Origin: Acetobacteraceae bacterium
GTDB taxonomy: Bacteria; Pseudomonadota; Alphaproteobacteria; Acetobacterales; Acetobacteraceae
Direction of reading: 5' to 3'
Length of the DNA stretch: 43,743 nt
NCBI GenBank assembly: GCA_031291795.1
Contig: JARLIJ010000173.1
Location: 1 to 43,743 of the forward strand
Shown here: positions 21,951 through 38,570 of the stretch, piece by piece
Layout: the number at the start of each line of letters is the position of its first letter
Numbering within the stretch: position 1 is the first letter of the stretch
Made by a program: the position numbers and the translations under genes
Notes under the pieces: generated by a model
The model's input: the letters and a program-made list of their open reading frames with translations, nothing else
What the model was told of the DNA's origin: nothing
Databases searched by the model: none

Positions 21951-22673
21951 TCATGTGGGGTGGCGTGTCCGGCGGGCTGCGACCAGGTTCAGGCTTTCGA
22001 CCAGCGCAGAGAAGCCCATCGCGGCGTAGACGTAGCCCTTCGGCACATGCGCGCCGAAGCCGTCTGCCACCAGCGTCATGCCGATCAGCAGCAGGAAGCT
22101 CAGCGCGAGCATCTTCACTGTCGGATGCTGGCCGATGAATTTCGACAATGGCCCGGATGCAATCAGCATCAGGCCGACGGCAATGACGACCGCGGCCATC
22201 ATGATGGACAGGTCGTTCGCCATGCCGACTGCGGTGATCACGCTGTCGAGCGAAAAGATCAGGTCCAGTGCCACGATCTGCGCCACCGTGGCGGCCAGGC
22301 CGGCATGCGGTCCCTCGACCGCCGGATCGGCGGCCTCGCCCTCCATCCGGTGATGGATCTCGGCGGTGCCTTTCCAGACCAGGAAGAGCCCGCCGCCGAT
22401 CAGGATCAGGTCGCGCCAGGAGAACGCAAAGCCCGCCACGCCAAACAAGGGTTGCGTCAGGCGCATGATCCAGGTGATGGCAGTGAGCAGTGCCAGGCGG
22501 GTGAACAGCGCCAGGAACAGGCCCAGCCGGCGGGCCGATGCCTGCCGGGCCGACGGCAGGCGGCCGGCCAGGATGGCGACGAACACGAGGTTGTCGATCC
22601 CGAGGACGATTTCCATCGTGGTCAGGGTGAGCAGGCTGATCCATGCCTGCGGATCGTCAATCAGGTGGAGCAT
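21951..22673 (-). CDS. TerC-family integral membrane protein
   Basis: Integral membrane protein of about 240 residues with multiple helices and the family's acidic membrane motifs: [20 protein letters not shown] near the start and [20 protein letters not shown] in the middle. TerC proteins are linked to tellurite resistance and to metal (Mn) handling. The start is ATG at 22673; a TTG nine bases earlier is the alternative. The start lies inside the 3' end of a small upstream ORF, and terB is further upstream on the same strand, so the three may form an operon. Confidence 0.92.
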
Positions 22674-22899
22674 GGCGGCCAATCGGGCATGGTTTCAGGT
22701 GGGCATGGTGCCTGCCGGTCGTGCCATGGCCCAACCGGTCCGCCAGCGCGCCCAGGCTGATCGACGCGGGCGCGCGGGGGCCAAGGCTGACGGAACCAGG
22801 CCTGAAGGGACCTGAGCCGAGGGGGACGAAGCGGACGGGGCCGGTGATCGCCTCGTCGCGTAGCGCCATAAGGCGGGCGGATGGCAGTTGCAGCGTCAT
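22657..22899 (-). CDS. hypothetical 80-aa protein between terB and terC
   Basis: An ATG at 22899 overlaps the terB stop in ATGA, and its stop overlaps the terC start by 17 bases. The first 60 codons have strongly GC-rich third positions, as in real genes here; the last 15 do not. The sequence ([20 protein letters not shown]) matches no family I recognise. It could be a real small gene, or merely a coupling segment. Confidence 0.35.
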
Positions 22900-23402
22900 T
22901 GGCCTGTCCCGAGGTCTGGTCCGGCCAAGCCGACACGGTCGCGGATGACTTCCAGCAGCGCGATCTCCTGCGGCCAGGTGACGCCGTCGGCCAGGGCGAC
23001 TTGGGTCGCAACCAGTGCGACCAGCGATGCGCCGGGGCGACCGGCGACCGATCGCAGACCATCGGCGGCGGTGCAGGCCTTCTCCAGGTTCAACGGGGCC
23101 GCCTCGCGCACTGCCAGCTCAAACGCTGCCAACAACTCCGCTCGGCCATAGCGGGCCAGTACGCCGTGGCAGCTCAGGAATCGTATCAGGCTGCGGCGCT
23201 CGCTGCGGGCGACATGACCGTCGGCGCAGGCGACCATGGCAGCGGCCGTGACGACGGCCTGAGCGGTGGCCCGGCTGGGCTGCAGCGTCACCGGCGGATC
23301 GGACGACGCGGCCCTGGGGAAGGCGGCACCGGGGAAGGTGTGCCTGGAGAAGACCTGTCCGGACTGGGAGGCCGGCTTGGACCGAGAGGTGGGATTCGAC
23401 AT
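22896..23402 (-). CDS. TerB-family tellurite resistance protein
   Basis: 168 residues. After a Ser/Pro/Arg-rich first 45 residues lies the TerB domain, with two acidic metal-binding-type motifs, MVACADGHVARSE and VALADGVTWPQE, each leading into a helix. ATG at 23402 has GGAG eight bases upstream. Its 3' end overlaps the next small ORF by four bases, with terC beyond. TerB and TerC can associate at the membrane in metal or stress responses. Confidence 0.85.
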   Translation of the reverse strand: MSNPTSRSKPASQSGQVFSRHTFPGAAFPRAASSDPPVTLQPSRATAQAVVTAAAMVACADGHVARSERRSLIRFLSCHGVLARYGRAELLAAFELAVREAAPLNLEKACTAADGLRSVAGRPGASLVALVATQVALADGVTWPQEIALLEVIRDRVGLAGPDLGTGQ

Positions 23403-23792
23403 CCTGTTGGCTCCGTTCGGGTGGCAAAGCCGCCCACGCAAGCGATGTCGAACGGGAATGTAGGCCCCTGGATCGATCGCCGCGCACGTGTGCGGTGATC
23501 CGACATCGCGGGTTGCGCCGAATGGTTCGGCGGTCCGCCAGAGGGGCCCGGATCGGGTTAACGTTCCTTAGGTGCGGACGGGCCTCCATCGTGTCAAGGG
23601 TCGTGCCAGGGGTGACGAACCGATTGTCCCAATGGCGTATTGGAGCTGGTGGAAGGGGCAGTGCGGGCCGTGTACCGCCACCATGGACGAGGCGGGGCAC
23701 CGAACGGCTCCACGCACATTGCTACCCTGGTTCCGATTGCGGCATCGGGCGCGTCCCGCAGCAGCGGTCGATGGTGCCGACGCCGGCTCGTG
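23403..23792. other. 390-base gap between dap and terB
   Basis: No supported gene on either strand; open frames here are short or antisense extensions. It presumably contains the terB promoter. No clear hairpin or known site was seen. Confidence 0.5.
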
Positions 23793-29014: not shown

Positions 29015-29815
29015 TCAGGCCAGCCGCTCGCGGCAGATCGCCGACAGCCGTTCGGCCGCGAACACGATCACGAAGACGATGATCAGCAGCAGCGACACGT
29101 CCTGGTACTGGAACAGGTTCATCGCCGTCAGCAGTTGGAACCCGATCCCGCCGGCGCCTACGAACCCCAGCACCAGCGAGGAACGGATGTTCTCGTCCAG
29201 CCGGTAGAGCCCGATCCCCGCCAGCGCCGGCAGCACCGACGGCACCACCCCGTGGGTGAACACCTGCATCCGGTTCGCCCCGGTCAGGGCGAGCGCATCG
29301 ACCGGCGCCATGTCCATGTTCTCGATCGTCTCGGCGAACAGGCGGCCCAGCATGCCGACCGAATGCACCGCCAGTGCCAGCCCGCCGGGGAACGGCCCCA
29401 GCCCCACGGCGGTCACGAACAGCAACGCCCAGACCAGGTCGGGCACCGCGCGGGTGAACCCGATCAGCGCGCGTGACAGGTAGTACAGCACGCGCGATGG
29501 CGTGACGTTGGACGCGGCCAGCACCGCGAGCGGCAGCGCCAGGCAGATGCCGGCAATGGTGCCGAACAGCCCGATATCGATCGTCTCCAGCGCCGGCCAT
29601 GCAGCCTCGGGCAGATACGCGAAATCCGGCGGCATGGAGCGGGACACGATGTCCACCATGCCGTGGAACCCGCTGACCAGGTCCTGCGGACGTGCCTGGA
29701 CCACGATCAGCGACTGGATCAGCACCAGCAGCCCGAACAGGAAGCCGACGGTGCGCAGCGCGATCGCCAGGCCGCCGCCCCAGGGACGCACGGCGGTCAA
29801 TTGTGTGGTGCTCAT
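29015..29815 (-). CDS. phnE: phosphonate-type ABC transporter permease
   Basis: 266 residues with a long N-terminal helix and about five further helices. The inner-membrane-component pattern includes TIDIGLFGTIAGICLALPLA and the ABC-contact loop DENIRSSLVLGFVGAGGIGF (EAA-type). It overlaps the phnC stop by four bases (ATGA). It forms the import channel with the ATPase and binding protein encoded upstream. Confidence 0.93.
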   Translation of the reverse strand: MSTTQLTAVRPWGGGLAIALRTVGFLFGLLVLIQSLIVVQARPQDLVSGFHGMVDIVSRSMPPDFAYLPEAAWPALETIDIGLFGTIAGICLALPLAVLAASNVTPSRVLYYLSRALIGFTRAVPDLVWALLFVTAVGLGPFPGGLALAVHSVGMLGRLFAETIENMDMAPVDALALTGANRMQVFTHGVVPSVLPALAGIGLYRLDENIRSSLVLGFVGAGGIGFQLLTAMNLFQYQDVSLLLIIVFVIVFAAERLSAICRERLA

Positions 29816-30564
29816 GCGGCCTCCGCCAGATAGAGTTGCCGCACGGCGTCCTGGGACAGCCCGGATGTTGGCTGGTCGAATGCCACGCGCCCGCTGCGCA
29901 GGCCGACCACCCGATCGGCGTAGGCAAACGCCAGGTCGACCTGGTGCAGCACGCACAGCACGCCCAGGCCCTCCTGATGCGCCAGCCGGCGCAGCAGCCG
30001 CATGATCTCCTGCGCCGCCTCCGGGTCCAGGCTCGCCACCGGCTCGTCCGCCAGCACCACGCTTGGCCGCTGCGCCAAAGCGCGCGCGATCGCCACGCGC
30101 TGGGCCTGGCCACCGGACAACGTGCCGGCGCGCTGCTTCGCGAGGTGCGACAGCCCGACCTGATGGAGGTAATCCGCCGCCGCCTGCATCTCGATGGACG
30201 GCAGCAGGCCGAGCGCGGTCAACAGGGTCTGGTGGCGACCGAGCGCGCCGCACGCGACGTTGGCCAGCACGCTGCGCCGGCGTACCAAAGCCGCATGCTG
30301 CCAGATCAACGCCACGTCCAGCCGCGCCTGCCGCAGCCGCTCGCCCGTCAGGTGGGCGATGTCCCCGCCGTTGAGCCAGACCTCACCGGCGGTCGGGGTC
30401 AGCGTGCGGGTGATGCAGCGCAGCAGCGTGGTCTTGCCGCAGCCGTTGCCGCCCAGCACGACGAGGAGTTCGCCGGCCGGGACAGCAATCGAGACGTCAA
30501 TCAGGGCCTGCGTGCCGCTGGGGTAGCGCAACGCCAGCCCGCGTACCTCCAGCAGCGGTTGCAT
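29812..30564 (-). CDS. phnC: phosphonate-type ABC transporter ATP-binding protein
   Basis: 250 residues. Walker A is GGNGCGKTTLL (about 38-48), the signature is LSGGQAQRVAIARAL, Walker B is VVLADEPVASLD and the switch His is in VLHQVDLAF. Family membership follows from its place between phnD and phnE. ATG at 30564, eight bases after the phnD stop. It powers uptake of a phosphonate, phosphite or phosphate ester. Confidence 0.93.
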   Translation of the reverse strand: MQPLLEVRGLALRYPSGTQALIDVSIAVPAGELLVVLGGNGCGKTTLLRCITRTLTPTAGEVWLNGGDIAHLTGERLRQARLDVALIWQHAALVRRRSVLANVACGALGRHQTLLTALGLLPSIEMQAAADYLHQVGLSHLAKQRAGTLSGGQAQRVAIARALAQRPSVVLADEPVASLDPEAAQEIMRLLRRLAHQEGLGVLCVLHQVDLAFAYADRVVGLRSGRVAFDQPTSGLSQDAVRQLYLAEAA

Positions 30565-30572
30565 CGCGGTGA

Positions 30573-31484
30573 TCAGCTCACCTTCTTGAGGTCGATGTGC
30601 AGGGTCGTGACCAGGTCGCGGATGCCATTGTAGGCGGCATCGGTCTGCGGCACGAAGCGCTGGCCGCCGAGGCCCATGATCTTGCGGTCGGCTTCCGGCA
30701 GGGTCGACAGGTCGAGGGTCTGCAGCGCCTCCGTCAGCCGCGCCTTGAAGGCTGGTGCCAGGTTGCCGCGAACCGAGATCGGGTCGGTCGGGATCGGATC
30801 GGACTTCCACAGGAAGACGAGGTCGCCGTCCTTGTAGTGGCCGCGCTGGGTGGCCGATTCCAGCTGCTCGCTGTTCAGCTCGCCGGCATCGACCTTCTTG
30901 TTGTAGAGCGCCTCGAAGGAAGCCGTGTGGCTGCCGGCATAGAGCGCCTTGATGTCCTTCTCCGGGTCGAGGCCGGCCTTGCGCAGGCCATAGGCCGGGA
31001 AGAGGTGGCCGGAGGTGGAGGCCGGGTCGGAGAAGGCGAAGGAGTGGCCGCGGATGTCGGCCACGGTCTTGATGCCGGAGGTCGGATAGGTGACCAGGCT
31101 GGCCCAGTAGGTGTCGGGCTTGCCATCCTTGCCGGCGAACGCAGCGACGGCCTCGGCATGGGCGACCTGATGGGCCAGGACGTAGCCAAGCGGACCGAAC
31201 TCGCCGATTTCGAGCTTGCCGGCGCGCATGGCTTCGATTTCGGCGTTGTAGTTGGTGGCGACGAAGACCTTGATCTCGCAGCCGATCTTCTCGCCGATCA
31301 GCGCCGCGATATGGTCGTAGATCGGCACCAGCTTGGCGGAGGTGTCGAACGGCTCGACGCCGAAGCGGACGACGCCGCCATTCGGGCAATCTTTGGCGTT
31401 GGCGGCCTGGGCACCAGGTGCCAGGGCAAGGGCTGCGAGAATGGCGCCGGCAAGGATGCCGGTTCGGCGATGCGTGCGTGACAT
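30573..31484 (-). CDS. phnD: phosphonate/phosphite-type periplasmic binding protein
   Basis: 303 residues. A signal peptide ends near PGAQAANA (about 28). The mature protein matches PhnD/SsuA/TauA-type type II binding proteins: VVRFGVEPFDTSAKLVPIYD, FVATNYNAEIEAMRAGKLEI, GPLGYVLA, SFAFSDPASTSGHLFPAYGL and AGSHTASFEALYNKKVDAGE. It is the first gene of the transport operon and has a Pho box 65 bases upstream. Phosphite, alkylphosphonate and other ligands are all possible. Confidence 0.93.
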   Translation of the reverse strand: MSRTHRRTGILAGAILAALALAPGAQAANAKDCPNGGVVRFGVEPFDTSAKLVPIYDHIAALIGEKIGCEIKVFVATNYNAEIEAMRAGKLEIGEFGPLGYVLAHQVAHAEAVAAFAGKDGKPDTYWASLVTYPTSGIKTVADIRGHSFAFSDPASTSGHLFPAYGLRKAGLDPEKDIKALYAGSHTASFEALYNKKVDAGELNSEQLESATQRGHYKDGDLVFLWKSDPIPTDPISVRGNLAPAFKARLTEALQTLDLSTLPEADRKIMGLGGQRFVPQTDAAYNGIRDLVTTLHIDLKKVS

Positions 31485-31876
31485 AGAGTTCTCCCCGCGC
31501 TGTGTTCAGCGGCCGGGGCGGGTTTTAGGCGGTCTGCAGCCGCGCAGGATGACAGGCCGATGAAACTTGCTGGCGGAATGGGGATGAAGCGGGGCTGAAG
31601 CGCGCTTGTCCGGTTGGTGCCTGGCAGAAATGCGGACAAGTCGGGAAGTGAGTGAGACCGTGGCGGCTTTCGTGCTGTGCCGCCCTCGCGGCAGGCGGGC
31701 ATCCGGGGCCGGGAGGGGATCATTCGCGAGCTTGCGATGGCGTTTGGTCGGAGTCCCGCGCTCCTGGAGCGGGGAGCGGATCGAAGGCCGGGGGCGGCGC
31801 GGACAGGGGCGGCGAAAAGCGCCTGCCGGCAGGTTCAGGGATCTCCGGCTTCGTCGAGGGCGCTTCCGGGCGGTAG
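31485..31876. other. 392-base gap between phnD and the cupin gene
   Basis: Holds a Pho box near the phnD side and otherwise no supported gene. The right part lies downstream of the cupin gene; no clear terminator was seen there. Confidence 0.5.
31549..31566 (-). promoter_or_regulatory. Pho box upstream of phnDCE
   Basis: Minus strand GTTTCATCGGCCTGTCAT: two 7-base half-sites (GTTTCAT, CTGTCAT) separated by CGGC. This is the 7-4-7 layout of the PhoB box (CTGTCAT-N4-CTGTCAT): the second half-site is perfect and the first matches 5 of 7. It ends 65 bases before the phnD start. Predicts induction under phosphate limitation. Confidence 0.65.
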
Positions 31877-32335
31877 CTATCCCTCCAGGAACGCCCGAAC
31901 GGCCGCGTTTTCCTTCAGCGTCGCCAAGTCCGTCGCGGTCGGCAATTGCGGCTTGTCGCGCAGCTGGTTGACCATGCAGAGGAACCCGAACTTCTCGCCC
32001 TGTGTGGCGCGGAACTGGTGCCAGGTCCAGGCCGGGATGGTCACCAGGTCGTGCGGCCCTACCGTCCGGACCTCGTCACCGACCAGGCAATGGCCGTGGC
32101 CGCACAGGATCATCACGCCATGCGCGTGCTCGTGGCGCTCCAGCGTGGAGTAGCCGCCGGCAGCCATCTCGAAATACCGCAACTGGCAGTGCAGTTCCGG
32201 CTCGTCGAACAGCACCTGGCGCGAGATATCCTTGAACGGCGCGCTGCCGTCCTGCTTGTACGGCATATGCGCCACGCCGTCCCAGCGGTAGTCGTCCCGT
32301 GCCGGGCGGAAGGCCGGGACCTGTTCGGTATCCAT
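31877..32335 (-). CDS. cupin-domain protein in the RuBisCO-like operon
   Basis: 152 residues, single cupin. The metal-binding positions are His68, His70, His72 (RHEHAH) and His106 (PAWTWHQF). The Glu of the classical first cupin motif is not at its usual place. Cys50, Cys78, Cys83 and Cys120 are present. ATG at 32335, eight bases after the RuBisCO-like stop, so it is the last gene of a three-gene operon. In Rhodospirillum rubrum a cupin works after a RuBisCO-like protein to remove methanethiol from 1-methylthioxylulose 5-phosphate; the same partnership is possible here but not shown. Confidence 0.85.
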   Translation of the reverse strand: MDTEQVPAFRPARDDYRWDGVAHMPYKQDGSAPFKDISRQVLFDEPELHCQLRYFEMAAGGYSTLERHEHAHGVMILCGHGHCLVGDEVRTVGPHDLVTIPAWTWHQFRATQGEKFGFLCMVNQLRDKPQLPTATDLATLKENAAVRAFLEG

Positions 32336-32343
32336 GCGAAATC

Positions 32344-33447
32344 CTAACGATACGGGTGCTGCGCCACGCTGCGTGCGAAGGCGGCGGCTTCCTCGGCGAT
32401 GCGCGCGCGCGCCATGAGCAGGTTGCCGCCGATCAGCAACATCGTATCCGGCCCGTAGAAGTCAAGAATCTCCCCGGTCCGCGCCAGGGTCATGCCGCCG
32501 GCCGGCACCGGCAGGGCAGGGCGCAGGCCGTCATCCGTGCGGCGGGCGTTGCGGACGAGATGCCGGCACGTCTGCGGCGCATAGCCGAAGCGGCCGCCGT
32601 GGTTGGGAAAGATCACCGCATCCGCGCCCAGCAGGCGAAACAGCGACCCGATCAGCAGCGCCGGGGCAATCCGGGCGGCGCCGCCCAGGCTGGGATGGGC
32701 GAACAGCGCCATCGTGGGAAAGTCACGCCGTATTGCCTGGATGCTGGCGAAGCCGGCGATCATCGGCACCACCATGGCGCAATCCAGCCCGGCCTCCTGC
32801 GTCAGGCGGAGCTGGGCGCGCATCTGGTCGAGGTCGCCGGTGATGCTGGGGATGTAGCGCGTCGGGTGCCCGGTATCCCGCACGGCACGCGCCACCGCGG
32901 CGGCACAGGCGCTCACCCGGACGGCGAAGCGGCCGTAGTCCTGGTCCGCCAGGCCGTGGTCGTCCTTGATGAAGTCCAGCCCGCCGCGGGCAAACCATTC
33001 TGCCAGTTCGGCCAGCCGCTCCGGCGCCAGGCCCTGCGGCTTCAGCGCCGATCCGGTGAAGGCGCGGCCTCGCACGCCCAGCCGGGCACGCAGGCCGGGG
33101 ATGCCGTGGCGCGGCCCGCCGAACAGCGCGGCCAGCGAGGCGGGGACTGCAATGTCCTCCAGCACCACGTCGTCATGCAGCGAGGTATTGCCGAACACCA
33201 TGTTCAGGAACTGGCCGGCATCCTGTCCGACCGTTGCGGTCGCCATATCGATTCGAACGACGAACGTGCCGTCGCCGCGATCGGCGATGTCCTCGACGCG
33301 GCCGACGATGTCCGTCAGCACGGCCGGCTCGTCGATCGCGGCGAGTGGCATCTCCACGCTCTGCTCCACCGCGATCGCCTCCGCGCGCGCAGCGATCGAG
33401 GCCGCATCGCTGCGCACCCGGTAGGTCACGGCGAAACGGTCGGTCAT
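32344..33447 (-). CDS. RuBisCO-like protein (form IV)
   Basis: 367 residues, much shorter than true RuBisCO. It keeps Lys136 (SALKPQGL, like Lys175 of RuBisCO) and the carbamylated-Lys motif as GGLDFIKDDH (Lys161, Asp163), with His164 replacing the metal-binding Glu. The loop-6 Lys region reads FPNHGGRFGY, without the catalytic Lys. It is therefore not a CO2-fixing enzyme. Form IV proteins isomerise methylthioribulose 1-phosphate, enolise related substrates or act on oxo-isoapionate phosphates. The ATG overlaps the synthetase stop (ATGA) and the cupin follows. Confidence 0.92.
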   Translation of the reverse strand: MTDRFAVTYRVRSDAASIAARAEAIAVEQSVEMPLAAIDEPAVLTDIVGRVEDIADRGDGTFVVRIDMATATVGQDAGQFLNMVFGNTSLHDDVVLEDIAVPASLAALFGGPRHGIPGLRARLGVRGRAFTGSALKPQGLAPERLAELAEWFARGGLDFIKDDHGLADQDYGRFAVRVSACAAAVARAVRDTGHPTRYIPSITGDLDQMRAQLRLTQEAGLDCAMVVPMIAGFASIQAIRRDFPTMALFAHPSLGGAARIAPALLIGSLFRLLGADAVIFPNHGGRFGYAPQTCRHLVRNARRTDDGLRPALPVPAGGMTLARTGEILDFYGPDTMLLIGGNLLMARARIAEEAAAFARSVAQHPYR

Positions 33448-35489
33448 GGGCGCGGCACCACCAGGGCGTCGACGGCCACCGCGCCGGAGGCGCCGAGGAT
33501 CACGGGGTTGACGTCGATCGCCTGCAGCCGCTCACCCAGCGCGAGGGCGGCGTCCTGCAGCGCCACCAGCAGGTCGACGAACGTCGCCGCCGCGTCGGGG
33601 TGCTTCCACCGCGGGCTGGCCAGCACGCGTCCCAGGCTGCTGCGTGACAGCTTCGCCGCGATGGCAGCGCGATCGATCGGCAGCTTCCAGGTGGCGACGT
33701 CGTGCAGGGCTTCGGCATAAATCCCGCCAAGGCCGGCGAGCAGCACCAGCCCGACGCCCTCCGCGCGGTTGACGCCGGCGATCGCTTCCAGCTCGCCCGC
33801 CACCATCGCCTGCACCACCACCCGGGCACAGCCGAGGTCGGCGAAGGCCTGGCGCAACGCAGGTTCGTCGCGCAAGCCGACCTTCACCAGGCCGAGGTCG
33901 CTCTTGTGCGCCACCCCCTCGGCGACGCCCTTCAGCACCACCGGATAGCCCACCCGCGTGGCAGCGCCGGCGGCTTCGTCCGAGGTGGCGCATTCAATGG
34001 TCGGGACGACCGGCACGCCGAACCCGGCCAGCAGGCGCAGGCTCTCGGGTTCGGTGAGAGCGCGGGCCGGCAAGAGTGGCGCAGCGGCTTGGGCGCGCTC
34101 GGGCATCGGTGCGGGGAGGGCGGTCATCAGCGCGCCGATGCCCTCCAGCAGGATGTCGGTCTCGGTGAACACCGGCATGCCGCGCGTCTCGTAGGTCGCG
34201 CGTTCTTCCGCCGGCATACCGCCGGGGGCGACGATCAGCAGTGGCTTGCCGCTGGCCTCCCGCGCACGGGCCAGCGCGGCGCGTATCGGATCGCCCTGCC
34301 ACGGGTTCATCGAATGCACCAGCGCCAGCCCCACGCTCACGCCGGGATCGGCCAGCAGCAGCGCCGGCACGTCGCCCGAACGGCGCATGCCGCCGAAGAT
34401 GCCCAGGTCGAGCGGATTGCCGATGCGGGAGAACACCTTATGCGCATCGATCGCGGCATGGGTCTCCGGCGCGAAGTCGGCCAGCTTGATCCCCAGCGCG
34501 GCGCAGCGGTCGGCGATCAAGGAGGCGCCGGCGCCGGAGGTGGAGAGCGCGCCGAGCGCACCGGGGCAGGGGCCGAAGCGGTCCAGCAGGGCGCTGGCGG
34601 TCATCAGGCCTTCCAACGTCGCGACCTGCGCCACGCCGCTGGCCTGGAACAGCGCCGCATAGGACGCGGCATCGCCGGCCAGCCGCGAGGAATGCGCCAC
34701 CGCCGCCGCGGCGCCCGCATCCGAGGTGCCGATCTTCAGCGCCACCACATGCTTGCCCGCCGCCTGTGCCCGCAGCGCCAGTGCTCGGAAACGTGCACCG
34801 TCGTCGAGGCTGTCCACCAGCAGCGCGATCACCTGCGTGGGGGCGTGGCCGATGGCGTATTCCATGTAGTCCAGGACGGAGAGGTCGGCCTCGTTGCCGG
34901 CGGAGGCGAACAACGACAGCCCGGCGCCCAGCATCGCCAGCCGCCCGGCCATCGCATCGAACAGCGCGCCGCTGTGGGAGAAGATCGCGATGCCGCCGGG
35001 CTTCTGCCGCTTCGCGTGCGCGGTGTTGAAGCCGATCGAGACGGGGCCGTGCGCGTTGTAGATGCCGTTGCAGTTGGGGCCGACGATGCGGATGCCTTCC
35101 TCGGCGGCGACGCGCTGCAGCTCGCATTGCCGTTCGGCGCCACCCGCGTCCAGGCTCTCGGCATAGCCGGCGGAGCCCACGATCACCGCGCGCAGTCCGG
35201 CGCGGGCGCAGTCGCGCACGGCCTGCACCGTAGCCTCGGCCGGGATCGACAGGAACGCCACGTCCACGGTCTTCGGCAGGGCGGCGATGTCGGGCACGCA
35301 GGGGATGCCCTCTACCTGCTGCAGGCGCCGGCTGACGCCGTACACCCCGCCGGTGAACCCCGCCGCACGCACGTTGGTCAGCACGATGTAGCCGAACTTC
35401 GTAGTGTCGTCGGAGGCGCCCACCACTGCCACCGCGCGCGGATGGAACAGCGCATGCAGCGCGTCCTGCGTGGCGATGCGTGGGGGCAT
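33444..35489 (-). CDS. acetate/acyl-CoA ligase, ADP-forming (Acs/Acd type)
   Basis: 681 residues with fused domains. A CoA-binding domain (about 10-140) contains HPRAVAVVGASDDTTKFGYI. Succinyl-CoA-synthetase-like domains (about 150-460) contain AIFSHSGALFDAMAGRLAML and SRIGNPLDLG. The ATP-grasp domain (about 480-681) contains GYPVVLKGVAEGVAHKSDLG. It makes or uses acyl-CoA with ADP formation. ATG at 35489 has GGAG nine bases upstream. It is the first gene of the operon with the RuBisCO-like protein and cupin, and divergent from the enoyl-CoA hydratase gene (109 bases between). Confidence 0.9.
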   Translation of the reverse strand: MPPRIATQDALHALFHPRAVAVVGASDDTTKFGYIVLTNVRAAGFTGGVYGVSRRLQQVEGIPCVPDIAALPKTVDVAFLSIPAEATVQAVRDCARAGLRAVIVGSAGYAESLDAGGAERQCELQRVAAEEGIRIVGPNCNGIYNAHGPVSIGFNTAHAKRQKPGGIAIFSHSGALFDAMAGRLAMLGAGLSLFASAGNEADLSVLDYMEYAIGHAPTQVIALLVDSLDDGARFRALALRAQAAGKHVVALKIGTSDAGAAAAVAHSSRLAGDAASYAALFQASGVAQVATLEGLMTASALLDRFGPCPGALGALSTSGAGASLIADRCAALGIKLADFAPETHAAIDAHKVFSRIGNPLDLGIFGGMRRSGDVPALLLADPGVSVGLALVHSMNPWQGDPIRAALARAREASGKPLLIVAPGGMPAEERATYETRGMPVFTETDILLEGIGALMTALPAPMPERAQAAAPLLPARALTEPESLRLLAGFGVPVVPTIECATSDEAAGAATRVGYPVVLKGVAEGVAHKSDLGLVKVGLRDEPALRQAFADLGCARVVVQAMVAGELEAIAGVNRAEGVGLVLLAGLGGIYAEALHDVATWKLPIDRAAIAAKLSRSSLGRVLASPRWKHPDAAATFVDLLVALQDAALALGERLQAIDVNPVILGASGAVAVDALVVPRP

Positions 35490-35598
35490 GGTTCGTCGCT
35501 CCATCCGGTTTGGGGGCGGCATGGTGCCGACCCAAGTCGGGGATGTCCATGCACGCGGGCGCATCCTAACGTCGCCGCAGGCAACACGGAGAAACCCG

Positions 35599-36387
35599 GT
35601 GAGCGAAACGTCCCCCATCCTGCTGAGCGAGCTGCGCAACCACATCCGCATCCTCACGATCAACCGACCGGAGCGCTCGAACGCCATCTCCCCGGAACTG
35701 GCCGAGGCGCTGATCACGGCGTTCGTGGAGGCCAATGCCGACCCGGACATCCGGGTGGTGATCCTCACCGGGGTGGGCGACCGCGCCTTCTGCGGCGGCG
35801 CCGACCTGAAGGCGCGGGCGGCCGAGGACGCCGCCGGCAAGCCGTTCCAGCCGCTGCTCTCCCGCGTGCAGCGCTACCTGTACGAAGTCGTCATGGAGAC
35901 CTTCAAGCCGACCATCGCCGCCCTGAACGGATCGGCCGTGGCGGGCGGCTGCGAGCTCGCCTTGGCCTGCGACCTGCGCGTGGCGGCGGAGCAGGCGCTG
36001 CTGGGCCTGCCGGAGGCCAAGCGCGGCAAGGGCGCGCATTTCGCCAACGTCATGCTGCCCCGCCTGGTGCCGCCGGCGATCGCGTTCGAGATGCTCTACC
36101 TCGGCGAATACATCGGCATGGAGGACGCGCGCCGCTGGGGCCTGGTCAACCGCGTGGTGCCCAAGGGCCAGGCGCTGGCGGAGGCGCTCCGGCTGGCCGA
36201 GGCGATCTGCGAGAACGCCCCGGTGACGCTGCGCCGCATGAAGGAGACCGCGGTCCGCGCCAACGGCCTGCCGATCTCCACCGCGCTGCGGCTGAACGAA
36301 GGCATCAGTCCGTATCAGAGCGAGGACCGGGTGGAGGGCGTGCGGGCCTATGTGGAGAAGCGCAAGCCGGTGTGGCAGGGGCGTTGA
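35599..36387 (+). CDS. enoyl-CoA hydratase/isomerase family (crotonase)
   Basis: 262 residues. The oxyanion-hole segments are AFCGGADLKA and ALNGSAVAGGCELALACDLR. The two acidic residues of crotonases are in GGCELAL and LLGLPEAKRG. The region after the second Glu reads KRGKGAHFANVMLPRLV instead of the common PGxGGTQRLPR, so specificity may differ. The GTG at 35599 has GGAG seven bases upstream; a longer frame from 35404 is antisense to the synthetase gene. Sharing the intergenic region with the synthetase suggests a common CoA-ester pathway. Confidence 0.92.
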   Translation: MSETSPILLSELRNHIRILTINRPERSNAISPELAEALITAFVEANADPDIRVVILTGVGDRAFCGGADLKARAAEDAAGKPFQPLLSRVQRYLYEVVMETFKPTIAALNGSAVAGGCELALACDLRVAAEQALLGLPEAKRGKGAHFANVMLPRLVPPAIAFEMLYLGEYIGMEDARRWGLVNRVVPKGQALAEALRLAEAICENAPVTLRRMKETAVRANGLPISTALRLNEGISPYQSEDRVEGVRAYVEKRKPVWQGR

Positions 36388-36419
36388 CGCGGCCTCGGTC
36401 AGCACGGCAGCTCCCCCAT

Positions 36420-36436
36420 CGACCCACGTTGGGTCG
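36420..36436. terminator. hairpin between convergent genes
   Basis: CGACCCA (36420-36426) and TGGGTCG (36430-36436) form a perfect 7-bp stem with a CGT loop, between the hydratase stop and the converging protease gene. Confidence 0.45.
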
Positions 36437-36488
36437 GCACAGGCACTGCAGAGGCCGGGTCAGTGGCCCCAGTTTCCTGGACGCAGGG

Positions 36489-37553
36489 TCAGTGCATGCA
36501 GATGACGTGCACCGTGGCCAGCCGCGCGGCGGCGATCGGCTCCTCGCCGCCGCTCAGGGTTCTGCCCAGGTCGATCCAGGGCGCTTCCCGGTGCACGAAC
36601 CCGGCCAGGCGCTCGCCGTCCGGGCCGGTCGCCATGTGCGCGCCGGCGTGGCCGACGATCGCCCGCACCGCCGGGCCGGTGATCTCGGCCCGCACGATCG
36701 CGACGACCGTCCCGGTCCGCGGGTCGACCACCGGGCCGCCGCTGTAGCCATGGGTGATGCGCATGGTCTCCAGCCACACGCCGTCGCGCAGCCCCGCGAG
36801 GCCACCGGCCCGCGTGAGCATGTCGGAACGCAGGTCCGGCCAGTCCTCCTCCGGCACCAGCATCCCGGCCGTCGCGGGATAGCCCAGCACGAGCATCCGT
36901 CCGTGGGCGGGCGGATCGCCCACCGGCAGCACCGCCGGCGGCTGGGCCTGGGCCGCCCGCAACAGCGCGATGTCGCGCAGCGTGTCGGTTGCCAGCACGT
37001 TCGCCACGGTCAGCGCGACATGGCTGGAGACGATCTGCGCGCGGCTGCACCCGGCCACGACATGCGCCGCGGTCAGCAGGCTGCCATCCATGGCGATGAA
37101 GAAACCGGTGCCGGCATAGGCACTGCCGGGCGCCCAATGCGGCGTGCCTGCCGCCGGCGATGAGCCGGGATGCACCACGGTCGGCAGCGGCGCAGGCTGG
37201 ACCATCGGCAGGGAGGGCGGCGGTGCGACAGGCGGTGCCATCGCAACCACGCCCTCCTGCTGCGCCGGCCCCGGATGCTGGACGACCGGCAGGCCTCCTT
37301 GGGCGGGCGCGGGGGACTGGCTGGAGGGTGTGGGGTACTGGGTGGCCGGCAGCGGCGCCCGGAACGGTGCGAGGGCCTGCCCCCCCGGCGGCGCGCTACG
37401 CGAGGGCGCCGGGGGAACGGCCTGCCCCGGCGTGTAGATGGTGACCGGCGGATGGACCCATGCCTCCAGCTTCGGCCAGTACTGCGTCAACAGCGCCGCA
37501 CCGATCGCCGAACCGATCAGCAGCCCGGTCAGATCCGCCATCCAGTGCCGCAT
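36489..37553 (-). CDS. membrane-anchored trypsin-like serine protease
   Basis: 354 residues. A short cytoplasmic start and one transmembrane helix (about 7-25) are followed by a long Pro/Ala/Gln-rich linker (about 40-140). A trypsin-fold domain (about 145-350) has the catalytic triad His164 (LTAAHVVAGC), Asp194 (TLRDIALLR) and Ser271 (HGYSGGPV). There is no PDZ domain. It should act in the periplasm, tethered to the inner membrane. ATG at 37553 (a TTG precedes it). It is divergent from the aminotransferase gene. Its target is unknown. Confidence 0.88.
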   Translation of the reverse strand: MRHWMADLTGLLIGSAIGAALLTQYWPKLEAWVHPPVTIYTPGQAVPPAPSRSAPPGGQALAPFRAPLPATQYPTPSSQSPAPAQGGLPVVQHPGPAQQEGVVAMAPPVAPPPSLPMVQPAPLPTVVHPGSSPAAGTPHWAPGSAYAGTGFFIAMDGSLLTAAHVVAGCSRAQIVSSHVALTVANVLATDTLRDIALLRAAQAQPPAVLPVGDPPAHGRMLVLGYPATAGMLVPEEDWPDLRSDMLTRAGGLAGLRDGVWLETMRITHGYSGGPVVDPRTGTVVAIVRAEITGPAVRAIVGHAGAHMATGPDGERLAGFVHREAPWIDLGRTLSGGEEPIAAARLATVHVICMH

Positions 37554-37700
37554 CAACCAGCCGACCCGCCTGTGGGGCAGTCATCATGCCTGCCAACCGG
37601 TTACAGCCCGGTATGCCAACGGCCCGCGTCCCGAACGCCGGCCCTTACCGCAGCGCGGCAGTTTCGATAGAGTGCCGCTTTCTTGCCGAGGCCATCACCG

Positions 37701-38570
37701 ATGAGTCGTATCGCCTACGTTAACGGAGAGTACCTCCCGCACCCTGAAGCCGTGGTGAATATCGAGGACCGCGGCTACCAGTTCGCCGATGGCGTCTATG
37801 AGGTCGTCTACCTCAACAACGGCCGCTTCATCGACGAGGACCGCCATCTCGACCGGCTCGACCGCTCGCTGCGTGAACTGCGCATCGCCCAGCCGATGGG
37901 CCGCCCCGCGCTGCGGGTGGTGCTGCGCGAAGTGATGCGCCGCAACCGCATCCGCGAGGGCATCGTCTACATGCAGATCACCCGTGGCGTCGCCCGCCGC
38001 GAGCATGCCTTCCCGGCCAAGCCGATCCCGCCCTCGATGGTGGTGACCGCGCGTCGTGTCGCGCCGTATCCTGTCGACGTGACGAAATGGACCGCGACCG
38101 CGATCACCCACCCCGATCAGCGCTGGGAGCGCTGCGACATCAAGTCGACCGCACTGCTGCCCAACGTGCTCGCCAAGGAGGCCGCCCACGCGCAGGGCGC
38201 GCAGGAGGCGATCCTGGTCGACGCCGAGGGCATGGTGACCGAGGGCTCCTCCACCAACATCTGGATCGTCGACAAGAACGGCGTCCTGCGCACCCGCCCG
38301 CTGGGGAACGAAATCCTGCCGGGCTGCACCCGTGCGGCGCTGGCGGCGGAGCTGACCGCGCATGGCATCGCGTTCGAGGAGTCGCGGTTCAGCGCCGAGG
38401 ATCTGCGGGACGCGCGGGAAGTGTTCCAGACCAGCGCCTCCAGCTTCGTCAAGCCGATCGTAAAGCTGAACGGTGCCCCGGTGGGCGACGGTGGCGTCGG
38501 GCCGGTGGCGAAGCAGTTGTTCGCGCTGTTTGCCCGCCACGTGCAGGGCGGTCCGCGCAACGCGGCCTGA
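37701..38570 (+). CDS. D-amino-acid aminotransferase (class IV PLP enzyme)
   Basis: 289 residues of the D-alanine transaminase type. PLP-binding Lys148 is in RCDIKSTALLPNVLA; YQFADGVYEVVYLNNGRF lies near the start and AEGMVTEGSSTNIWIV in the cofactor phosphate region. It moves the amino group between D-amino acids and 2-oxo acids. ATG at 37701; an upstream reading from 37683 adds six doubtful residues. A D-aminopeptidase gene in the same window could feed it, but they are 12 kb apart. A branched-chain aminotransferase is the alternative within the fold. Confidence 0.9.
   Translation: MSRIAYVNGEYLPHPEAVVNIEDRGYQFADGVYEVVYLNNGRFIDEDRHLDRLDRSLRELRIAQPMGRPALRVVLREVMRRNRIREGIVYMQITRGVARREHAFPAKPIPPSMVVTARRVAPYPVDVTKWTATAITHPDQRWERCDIKSTALLPNVLAKEAAHAQGAQEAILVDAEGMVTEGSSTNIWIVDKNGVLRTRPLGNEILPGCTRAALAAELTAHGIAFEESRFSAEDLRDAREVFQTSASSFVKPIVKLNGAPVGDGGVGPVAKQLFALFARHVQGGPRNAA

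Follow-up and report, generated by a model that had tools for sequence, protein, structure and literature searches.

The window analysed here is a 43,743-nucleotide stretch of contig JARLIJ010000173.1 (assembly GCA_031291795.1), belonging to a genome bin, 69% complete, of an Acetobacteraceae bacterium, and our subject is a set of four genes in it that centres on a RuBisCO-like protein (RLP). Three of the genes lie on the minus strand. The first in the order of transcription codes for a single-chain ADP(NDP)-forming acyl-CoA ligase (ACL; 33444..35489), recognised by its orthologs and by the Pfam domains ATP-grasp_5, Succ_CoA_lig and CoA_binding_2. It is followed by the gene for a predicted DeepYkr-type RLP (32344..33447; RuBisCO_large), a candidate 5-methylthioribulose-1-phosphate 1,3-isomerase by its Protein Data Bank (PDB) match, conserved residues and position in a tree, and by that for a cupin (31877..32335; Cupin_2), a predicted 1-methylthioxylulose-5-phosphate (MTXu-5P) methylsulfurylase by its match to 3JZV and its invariant histidines. 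The fourth gene diverges on the plus strand and codes for a crotonase of the enoyl-CoA hydratase type (ECH; 35596..36387, with an inferred GTG start), assigned from its ECH_1 domain, its two retained glutamates and its co-occurrence with the ACL. The end of the ACL gene (33444) and the start of the RLP gene (33447) overlap by 4 nt (ATGA), and 8 nt separate the RLP stop (32344) from the cupin start (32335). Gene content, coordinates, coupling and spacing agree with an initial annotation made from the DNA letters alone, and its outer limit, 35489, is the ATG that ortholog alignment supports as the ACL start (MPPRIATQ, with GGAG upstream), giving a protein of 681 residues.

We compared the window with 80 related loci, several of which are cut short by their contigs. 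A rough gene caller recovered the RLP in no more than 65 of the 81 loci, and the locus counts therefore rest on tblastn; residue counts were taken over distinct hits with a query coverage of 85% or more (83 RLP and 79 cupin rows), with more than 60% identity also required for the ACL (25 of 28 rows counted) and the ECH (24 of 26). The cupin gene lies on the RLP strand in 78 of the 80 loci; the two exceptions are L019, whose genome has the cupin on another contig, and L022, whose contig stops some 700 nt past the RLP. Among 79 distinct loci with a cupin, the gap that separates it from the RLP stays under 150 nt in 76 and measures 173, 324 and 1364 nt in the other three. An ACL directly precedes the RLP in 27 of the 80 (69-77% identity). 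Of 28 distinct ACL loci, 27 share an ACL-RLP overlap of exactly 4 nt, and in the remaining one it is 10 nt. As this gap and this overlap are kept across loci, the linkage of these genes is more than chance.

The best PDB match of the cupin is 3JZV, deposited as Rru_A2000 (E 5e-58, 61.0% identity over 146 residues), and the second is 3KGZ (59.6% identity), which we take to be the cupin of Rhodopseudomonas palustris. Four histidines, H68, H70, H72 and H106, are invariant in 79/79 cupins and, by analogy, are presumably metal ligands. For the RLP the best match is 3QFW (E 1.1e-105, 48.6% identity), with the next chain at 5.9e-34. We take 3QFW to be a Rhodopseudomonas palustris protein, and probably its RLP1, because 2QYG, a chain labelled RLP 2, matches the window RLP only at 2.4e-24. 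In a quick tree of 86 RLP rows 3QFW groups, on a long branch, among the alphaproteobacterial RLPs. According to the accessible part of PMC4958253, Rru_A2000 is the MTXu-5P sulfurylase and Rru_A1998 the Deep-Ykr RLP of the 5'-methylthioadenosine (MTA)-isoprenoid shunt of Rhodospirillum rubrum. The corresponding portion of PMC5893883 describes the Rhodopseudomonas palustris RLP1 (RPA2169) as a DeepYkr enzyme that forms MTXu-5P with a kcat of 1.3 per s; the shunt of this organism was shown there by deletion, labelled MTA and enzyme assay, and deletion of either RLP1 or the cupin (RPA2170) reduced methanethiol release. The likeness to the Rhodospirillum rubrum system, a Rru_A1998-type RLP beside a cupin, which had been noted at the outset, is upheld.

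Other assignments of the RLP were rejected. It shares its superfamily with OiaX of the oxo-isoapionate pathway, but its score of 66.3 bits lies far below the cut-off of 700, and against MtnW (TIGR03332) it reaches 100 bits versus a cut-off of 513.6. The initial annotation had further noted that K136 and K161 are kept, and had pointed to H164 in place of the metal-binding glutamate and to a loop 6 devoid of lysine as signs of an undescribed variant that might process a sugar phosphate into an acyl-CoA. The numbering of these residues was correct, and alignment bore out the lack of lysine in the loop-6 stretch (residues 281-290, PNHGGRFGYA). Yet the three residues are invariant in 83/83 distinct RLPs, and the loop is free of lysine in all 83. 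3QFW carries the same KPQG and KDDHG motifs, His164 included, and likewise no loop lysine. By alignment, His164 and the lysine-free loop are best regarded as traits of the whole RLP group: 6HUN (a RuBisCO), MtnW (2OEK) and 4NAS have a glutamate at the position of His164, and 6HUN has one lysine in the stretch aligned with loop 6. The claim of an undescribed variant is unsupported because both traits are group-wide, and they are discarded as grounds for a new activity. Co-translation with a CoA ligase might still favour an RLP that converts a sugar phosphate to an acyl-CoA precursor. Nevertheless, these traits are common to RLPs with and without an ACL, the ACL-bearing RLPs nest inside ACL-free ones in the tree, and a cupin is present in all 17 RLP-bearing genomes checked. 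Moreover, the proteins with which the RLP groups have a settled function that does not involve CoA esters, and relatives of both the RLP and the cupin have been characterised in the MTA-isoprenoid shunt. We hence consider such an activity very improbable.

We then asked which salvage genes accompany the RLP in 20 of 397 genomes of the family, selected by us as 11 with the ACL, 6 with the RLP and no ACL, and 3 without the RLP. MtnA and MtnP score above their cut-offs in 20/20 genomes, including the window's own and those without the RLP, and O-acetylhomoserine sulfhydrylase does so in 19/20 (in the window's genome, 601.7 bits versus 495.1). The cupin is present in 17/17 RLP-bearing genomes versus 0/3 of the others. 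MtnC, the enolase-phosphatase of the usual methionine salvage route, shows the opposite pattern, being above its cut-off in 1/17 RLP-bearing genomes (G033, which has both) versus 3/3 without the RLP; it has no match in the window's own, 69% complete genome. On account of this pattern, the RLP-cupin pair appears to replace the usual route. Canonical salvage through MtnW or MtnC was set aside, the RLP being under the MtnW cut-off and MtnC not above its own in 16 of 17 RLP-bearing genomes.

The likeness of the cupin to Rru_A2000 and of the RLP to 3QFW, the presence of MtnP, MtnA and O-acetylhomoserine sulfhydrylase as in the Rhodospirillum rubrum system, and the MtnC pattern together argue that the RLP and cupin represent a further instance of a known pathway, the MTA-isoprenoid shunt, with known chemistry. 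MtnP and MtnA, coded elsewhere in the genome, would convert MTA to 5-methylthioribulose-1-phosphate, which the RLP would isomerise to MTXu-5P and the cupin would cleave to methanethiol and 1-deoxyxylulose 5-phosphate. The former could be returned to methionine by O-acetylhomoserine sulfhydrylase and the latter directed to isoprenoids. Of the 397 family genomes, 64 carry an RLP at E 1e-60, four of them with no more than 37-39% identity. These figures suggest that the RLP-cupin route is widespread in Acetobacteraceae, where it would stand in for the usual oxygen-dependent salvage; these bacteria would then be producers of methanethiol.

The novelty of the locus thus lies in the co-translated ACL and the divergent ECH, the RLP-cupin core being already known. 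The ACL, by its domains and phosphohistidine (H271 when numbering starts at 35504, which adds five residues before the ATG; present in 25/25 orthologs), is a predicted member of the ADP-forming acyl-CoA ligase superfamily. It lies below every NCBIfam cut-off, the best hit being acetate--CoA ligase at 300 bits versus an equivalog cut-off of 1200. The ECH has E120 and E140 in 24/24 orthologs, which we take to be the two glutamates of active hydratases. Among PDB chains the ACL matches a 3-hydroxypropionate-CoA ligase (9Y43), a 4-hydroxybutyrate-CoA ligase (8WZU) and, in third place, DddX (7CM9), with which it has domains, phosphohistidine and ATP-grasp in common, unlike them in falling under all curated cut-offs. 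The DddX match and the two-enzyme layout would fit an ATP-dependent dimethylsulfoniopropionate lyase followed by an acryloyl-CoA hydratase. In the available part of PMC8163506, Trp391 and Phe435 of DddX bind the sulfonium in a docked model. Trp391 should align with G368 of the ACL, a glycine in 25/25 orthologs, where this placement extends an alignment ending at DddX residue 390 and Glu432 and Phe435 lie outside it. On the strength of this position the DddX reading was rejected, and we give it almost no credence.

The ACL and ECH have a narrow and closely matched distribution. The ECH diverges from the ACL in 20 of the 27 ACL loci; of the seven without an adjoining ECH, one (L011, from genome G156) has it on another contig, four are ended by the contig, and two (L009 and L023) show no ECH in the roughly 420-460 nt that they have upstream. 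Across the family, an ACL ortholog (70-78% identity) occurs in 11 of the 397 genomes, each of which has an RLP gene adjacent to it. The same 11 genomes, and no others, have an ECH at 78-90% identity; it shares the contig of the ACL in seven and lies on a different one in the remaining four, among which it is clearly unlinked in G156 and the ACL itself is cut by a contig end in G235. Four genomes have an ECH and no ACL, two at about 70% and two at 52-56% identity. Eighteen further genomes with an RLP and no adjoining ACL yielded no ACL ortholog elsewhere (best match 37%), and among 385 genomes of the class the only ortholog is the window's own (next, 37-38%). An ACL ortholog was never found away from an RLP in the genomes examined. 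The co-occurrence of the four genes, which the initial annotation had named as a test, is thus conserved, but within one clade.

A protein of 135-157 residues follows the ECH in several loci (L003:5511-5930, L126:8184-8657, L019:8516-8923; alike by eye), and is present even where the ECH is unlinked from the ACL (L126) or a remnant (L019). The copies of L003 and L126 have no Pfam match.

In the quick tree, in which seven rows with less than 700 nt upstream were given no ACL label, the 28 ACL-bearing RLP rows fall within one set of 33 that has five ACL-free rows inside it. The label takes three changes on the tree, which by itself cannot separate gain from loss. Gene remnants add to this picture. 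In G199 (locus L019) they match ACL residues 4-24 and 608-686 and ECH residues 2-57 and, weakly, 238-259, and in Rhodopila globiformis ACL residues 17-65 only (39% identity over 49 residues, E 2e-6). The RLP is open in both of these lineages and the cupin is retained in both. No ACL traces were found in G395, L006 and L010, which group with Rhodopila globiformis, nor did the 73 upstream stretches (300-2500 nt, some of them duplicated) of ACL-free RLPs yield further ones at E 1. In one of the loci, L081, an unrelated crotonase (29%) lies upstream of an ACL-free RLP. The RLP tree and the remnants fit one gain of the ACL and two losses, which is our best reading. Since two lineages lost the ACL and kept the RLP and cupin, the ACL and ECH would be dispensable for the shunt, and they tend to travel together, as the ACL-free genomes of the same genus (G199, G383 and G395) also have no ECH hit at E 1e-75.

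Hence, we posit that the RLP and cupin run the shunt and that the ACL and crotonase are an accessory module added in one clade of Acetobacteraceae, a reading to which we assign a probability of roughly 0.85. In the clade of Rhodopila and its relatives, the ACL would have been inserted upstream of the RLP and coupled to it, together with the crotonase. The ACL would activate a small carboxylic acid, with ATP giving phospho-His271, an acyl phosphate and then the acyl-CoA, and the crotonase would hydrate or dehydrate the matching enoyl-CoA. The module would be expressed along with the shunt and not be a required step of it; homology, linkage, co-occurrence and gene remnants are seen directly, and the activities and the co-expression we infer.

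Several points weigh against this proposal. The 11 ACL-bearing genomes are close kin, 10 of them in one genus, and so the co-occurrence of ACL and ECH reflects few events. Two genomes of genus g78 have a 70% ECH and no ACL, so that such an ECH can work without the ACL. The starred branches of the tree force only two changes, and of the five rows in the ACL clade that have no ACL, only two show traces of one. On the side of the shunt, the 20-genome sample was chosen by us and is not random, the absence of MtnC from the incomplete genome of the window is weak when taken alone, and four RLP-bearing genomes have MtnC matches of 21-25 bits, far under the cut-off of 128. The DeepYkr assignment draws on 3QFW, the cupin partner and the published accounts in place of the Rhodospirillum rubrum RLP sequence, and the equation of 3QFW with RLP1 is in part our assumption.

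As to the substrate of the proposed module, the distant relatives of its enzymes are instructive. The nearest ACL relatives outside the clade (37-38%) lie in catabolic-looking clusters. One in locus L128 is accompanied by a Rieske oxygenase, a reductase and an amino-acid transporter. A 37% relative in L145:2122-8092 belongs to an operon-like run with genes for a BKACE protein, a 2-hydroxyacid dehydrogenase, an acyl-CoA dehydrogenase and an ECH, which looks like a small-acid catabolic cluster. These clusters point to activation by the ACL of a small acid for beta-oxidation-like steps. Two genomes of a different genus have ECH homologs at 70% identity, without an ACL, in an apparent ECH - Amidohydro_2 - short-chain dehydrogenase/reductase (SDR) operon (L122:7748-10407 and L123:6117-8638; Pfam on L122 only). 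The ACL and ECH might accordingly act on an acid unrelated to the shunt and merely share its transcription, as would suit these catabolic-looking settings, the Amidohydro_2 and SDR neighbours of the ECH homologs, and the persistence of RLP and cupin after ACL loss. This is a serious contender, if somewhat short of even odds, for the ACL ortholog is always next to the RLP in the 11 family genomes that have it, and no stray copy occurs in the 18 further RLP genomes or the 385 of the class.

Alternatively, the shunt might have gained a CoA-thioester arm, in which the ACL and ECH act on a metabolite that stems from MTA, methanethiol or methionine, for example a methylthio-acid; we advance this only tentatively. 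If true, methionine salvage in Rhodopila-type Acetobacteraceae would proceed partly through acyl-CoA chemistry. As a first guess at linked substrates, a methylthio-acid such as 3-methylthiopropionate, also yielding methanethiol, is unlikely, though it would by conjecture explain the linkage; an acid with no link to the shunt is no less likely. In its explicit form as a CoA-dependent sulfur branch, the ACL would act on 3-methylthiopropionate, with methionine or the corresponding keto acid as its source; following a dehydrogenation step elsewhere, a DmdD-like ECH would release methanethiol, both arms supplying the same sulfhydrylase. The strict linkage of the ACL to a methanethiol-releasing operon and the retention of both glutamates in the ECH would agree with this, and an acid-CoA ligase with a crotonase is the layout of DmdB and DmdD. 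However, known DmdB enzymes are AMP-forming, and DmdD is not named among the best 60 of 218 PDB matches of the ECH. Furthermore, by a rough gene map no additional gene recurs beside most ACL loci, and, among the minority of neighbours that were scanned, an acyl-CoA dehydrogenase adjoins the ACL only in L127. Such a branch is therefore doubtful.

A role in recycling acetate released by O-acetylhomoserine sulfhydrylase, with acetyl-CoA returned to MetX, is less probable again. It would accord with acetate--CoA ligase as the best NCBIfam hit, with the sulfhydrylase in the genome, and with the balance of MTA use versus acyl-CoA pools for acetylhomoserine, which the accessible text of PMC4958253 leaves open. 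Conversely, the score is far under the equivalog cut-off, the loss of the ECH together with the ACL stays unexplained, and, in the same partial source, a Rhodospirillum rubrum acetate-CoA ligase is 2.3-fold lower on MTA (PMC4958253).

Compared with the Rhodospirillum rubrum shunt as set out in the sections of PMC4958253 at hand, the window adds an RLP-coupled ADP-forming CoA ligase and a divergent crotonase, and acyl-CoA occurs there seven times as a term, on lipid, polyhydroxybutyrate and acylhomoserine metabolism. The term occurs 0 times in the available portions of PMC6302742, PMC10663253 and PMC5893883, the last of which describes the Rhodopseudomonas palustris pair. Among the matches listed in open-access PubMed Central (titles and starts of abstracts), none linked a CoA ligase to the shunt. 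These sources, as far as they extend, agree with the initial annotation that a CoA ligase is no described part of the pathway. The initial annotation is thus confirmed in its observations and partly supported in its interpretation, and the co-translated CoA ligase provides a well-defined starting point, open to testing, for an add-on of the shunt that has not been described.

The divergent intergenic region between ACL and ECH (35490..35595) has a partly conserved TGGACA-like block, seen in some of 20 aligned loci and absent from others; the 20 derive from 26 loci with both genes after duplicates and one locus with a 954-nt gap were dropped. The block is no evidence by itself. A generic consensus scan for promoters and terminators found none in 31000-36600, and a search for RNA elements in 31400-35800 found none up to E 1.

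Elsewhere in the window, genes for a PhnD-PhnC-PhnE-like phosphonate/phosphite ABC transporter (29015-31484, minus strand) lie on the strand of the cupin, 392 nt downstream of it. None of the 80 other loci, several of which are contig-limited, showed PhnD in the vicinity of the RLP, and the transporter was hence rejected as part of the RLP system. A D-amino-acid transaminase is coded at 37683-38570 (plus strand; NCBIfam PRK06680, 368 bits versus a cut-off of 320). A terC RNA (Rfam RF03067) lies at 23491-23559 on the minus strand (47.4 bits versus a cut-off of 39.9); the open reading frame downstream of it (21951-22682, minus strand) presumably codes for a TerC-family membrane protein, and the one between them (22896-23441) perhaps for what we would call a TerB-like protein.

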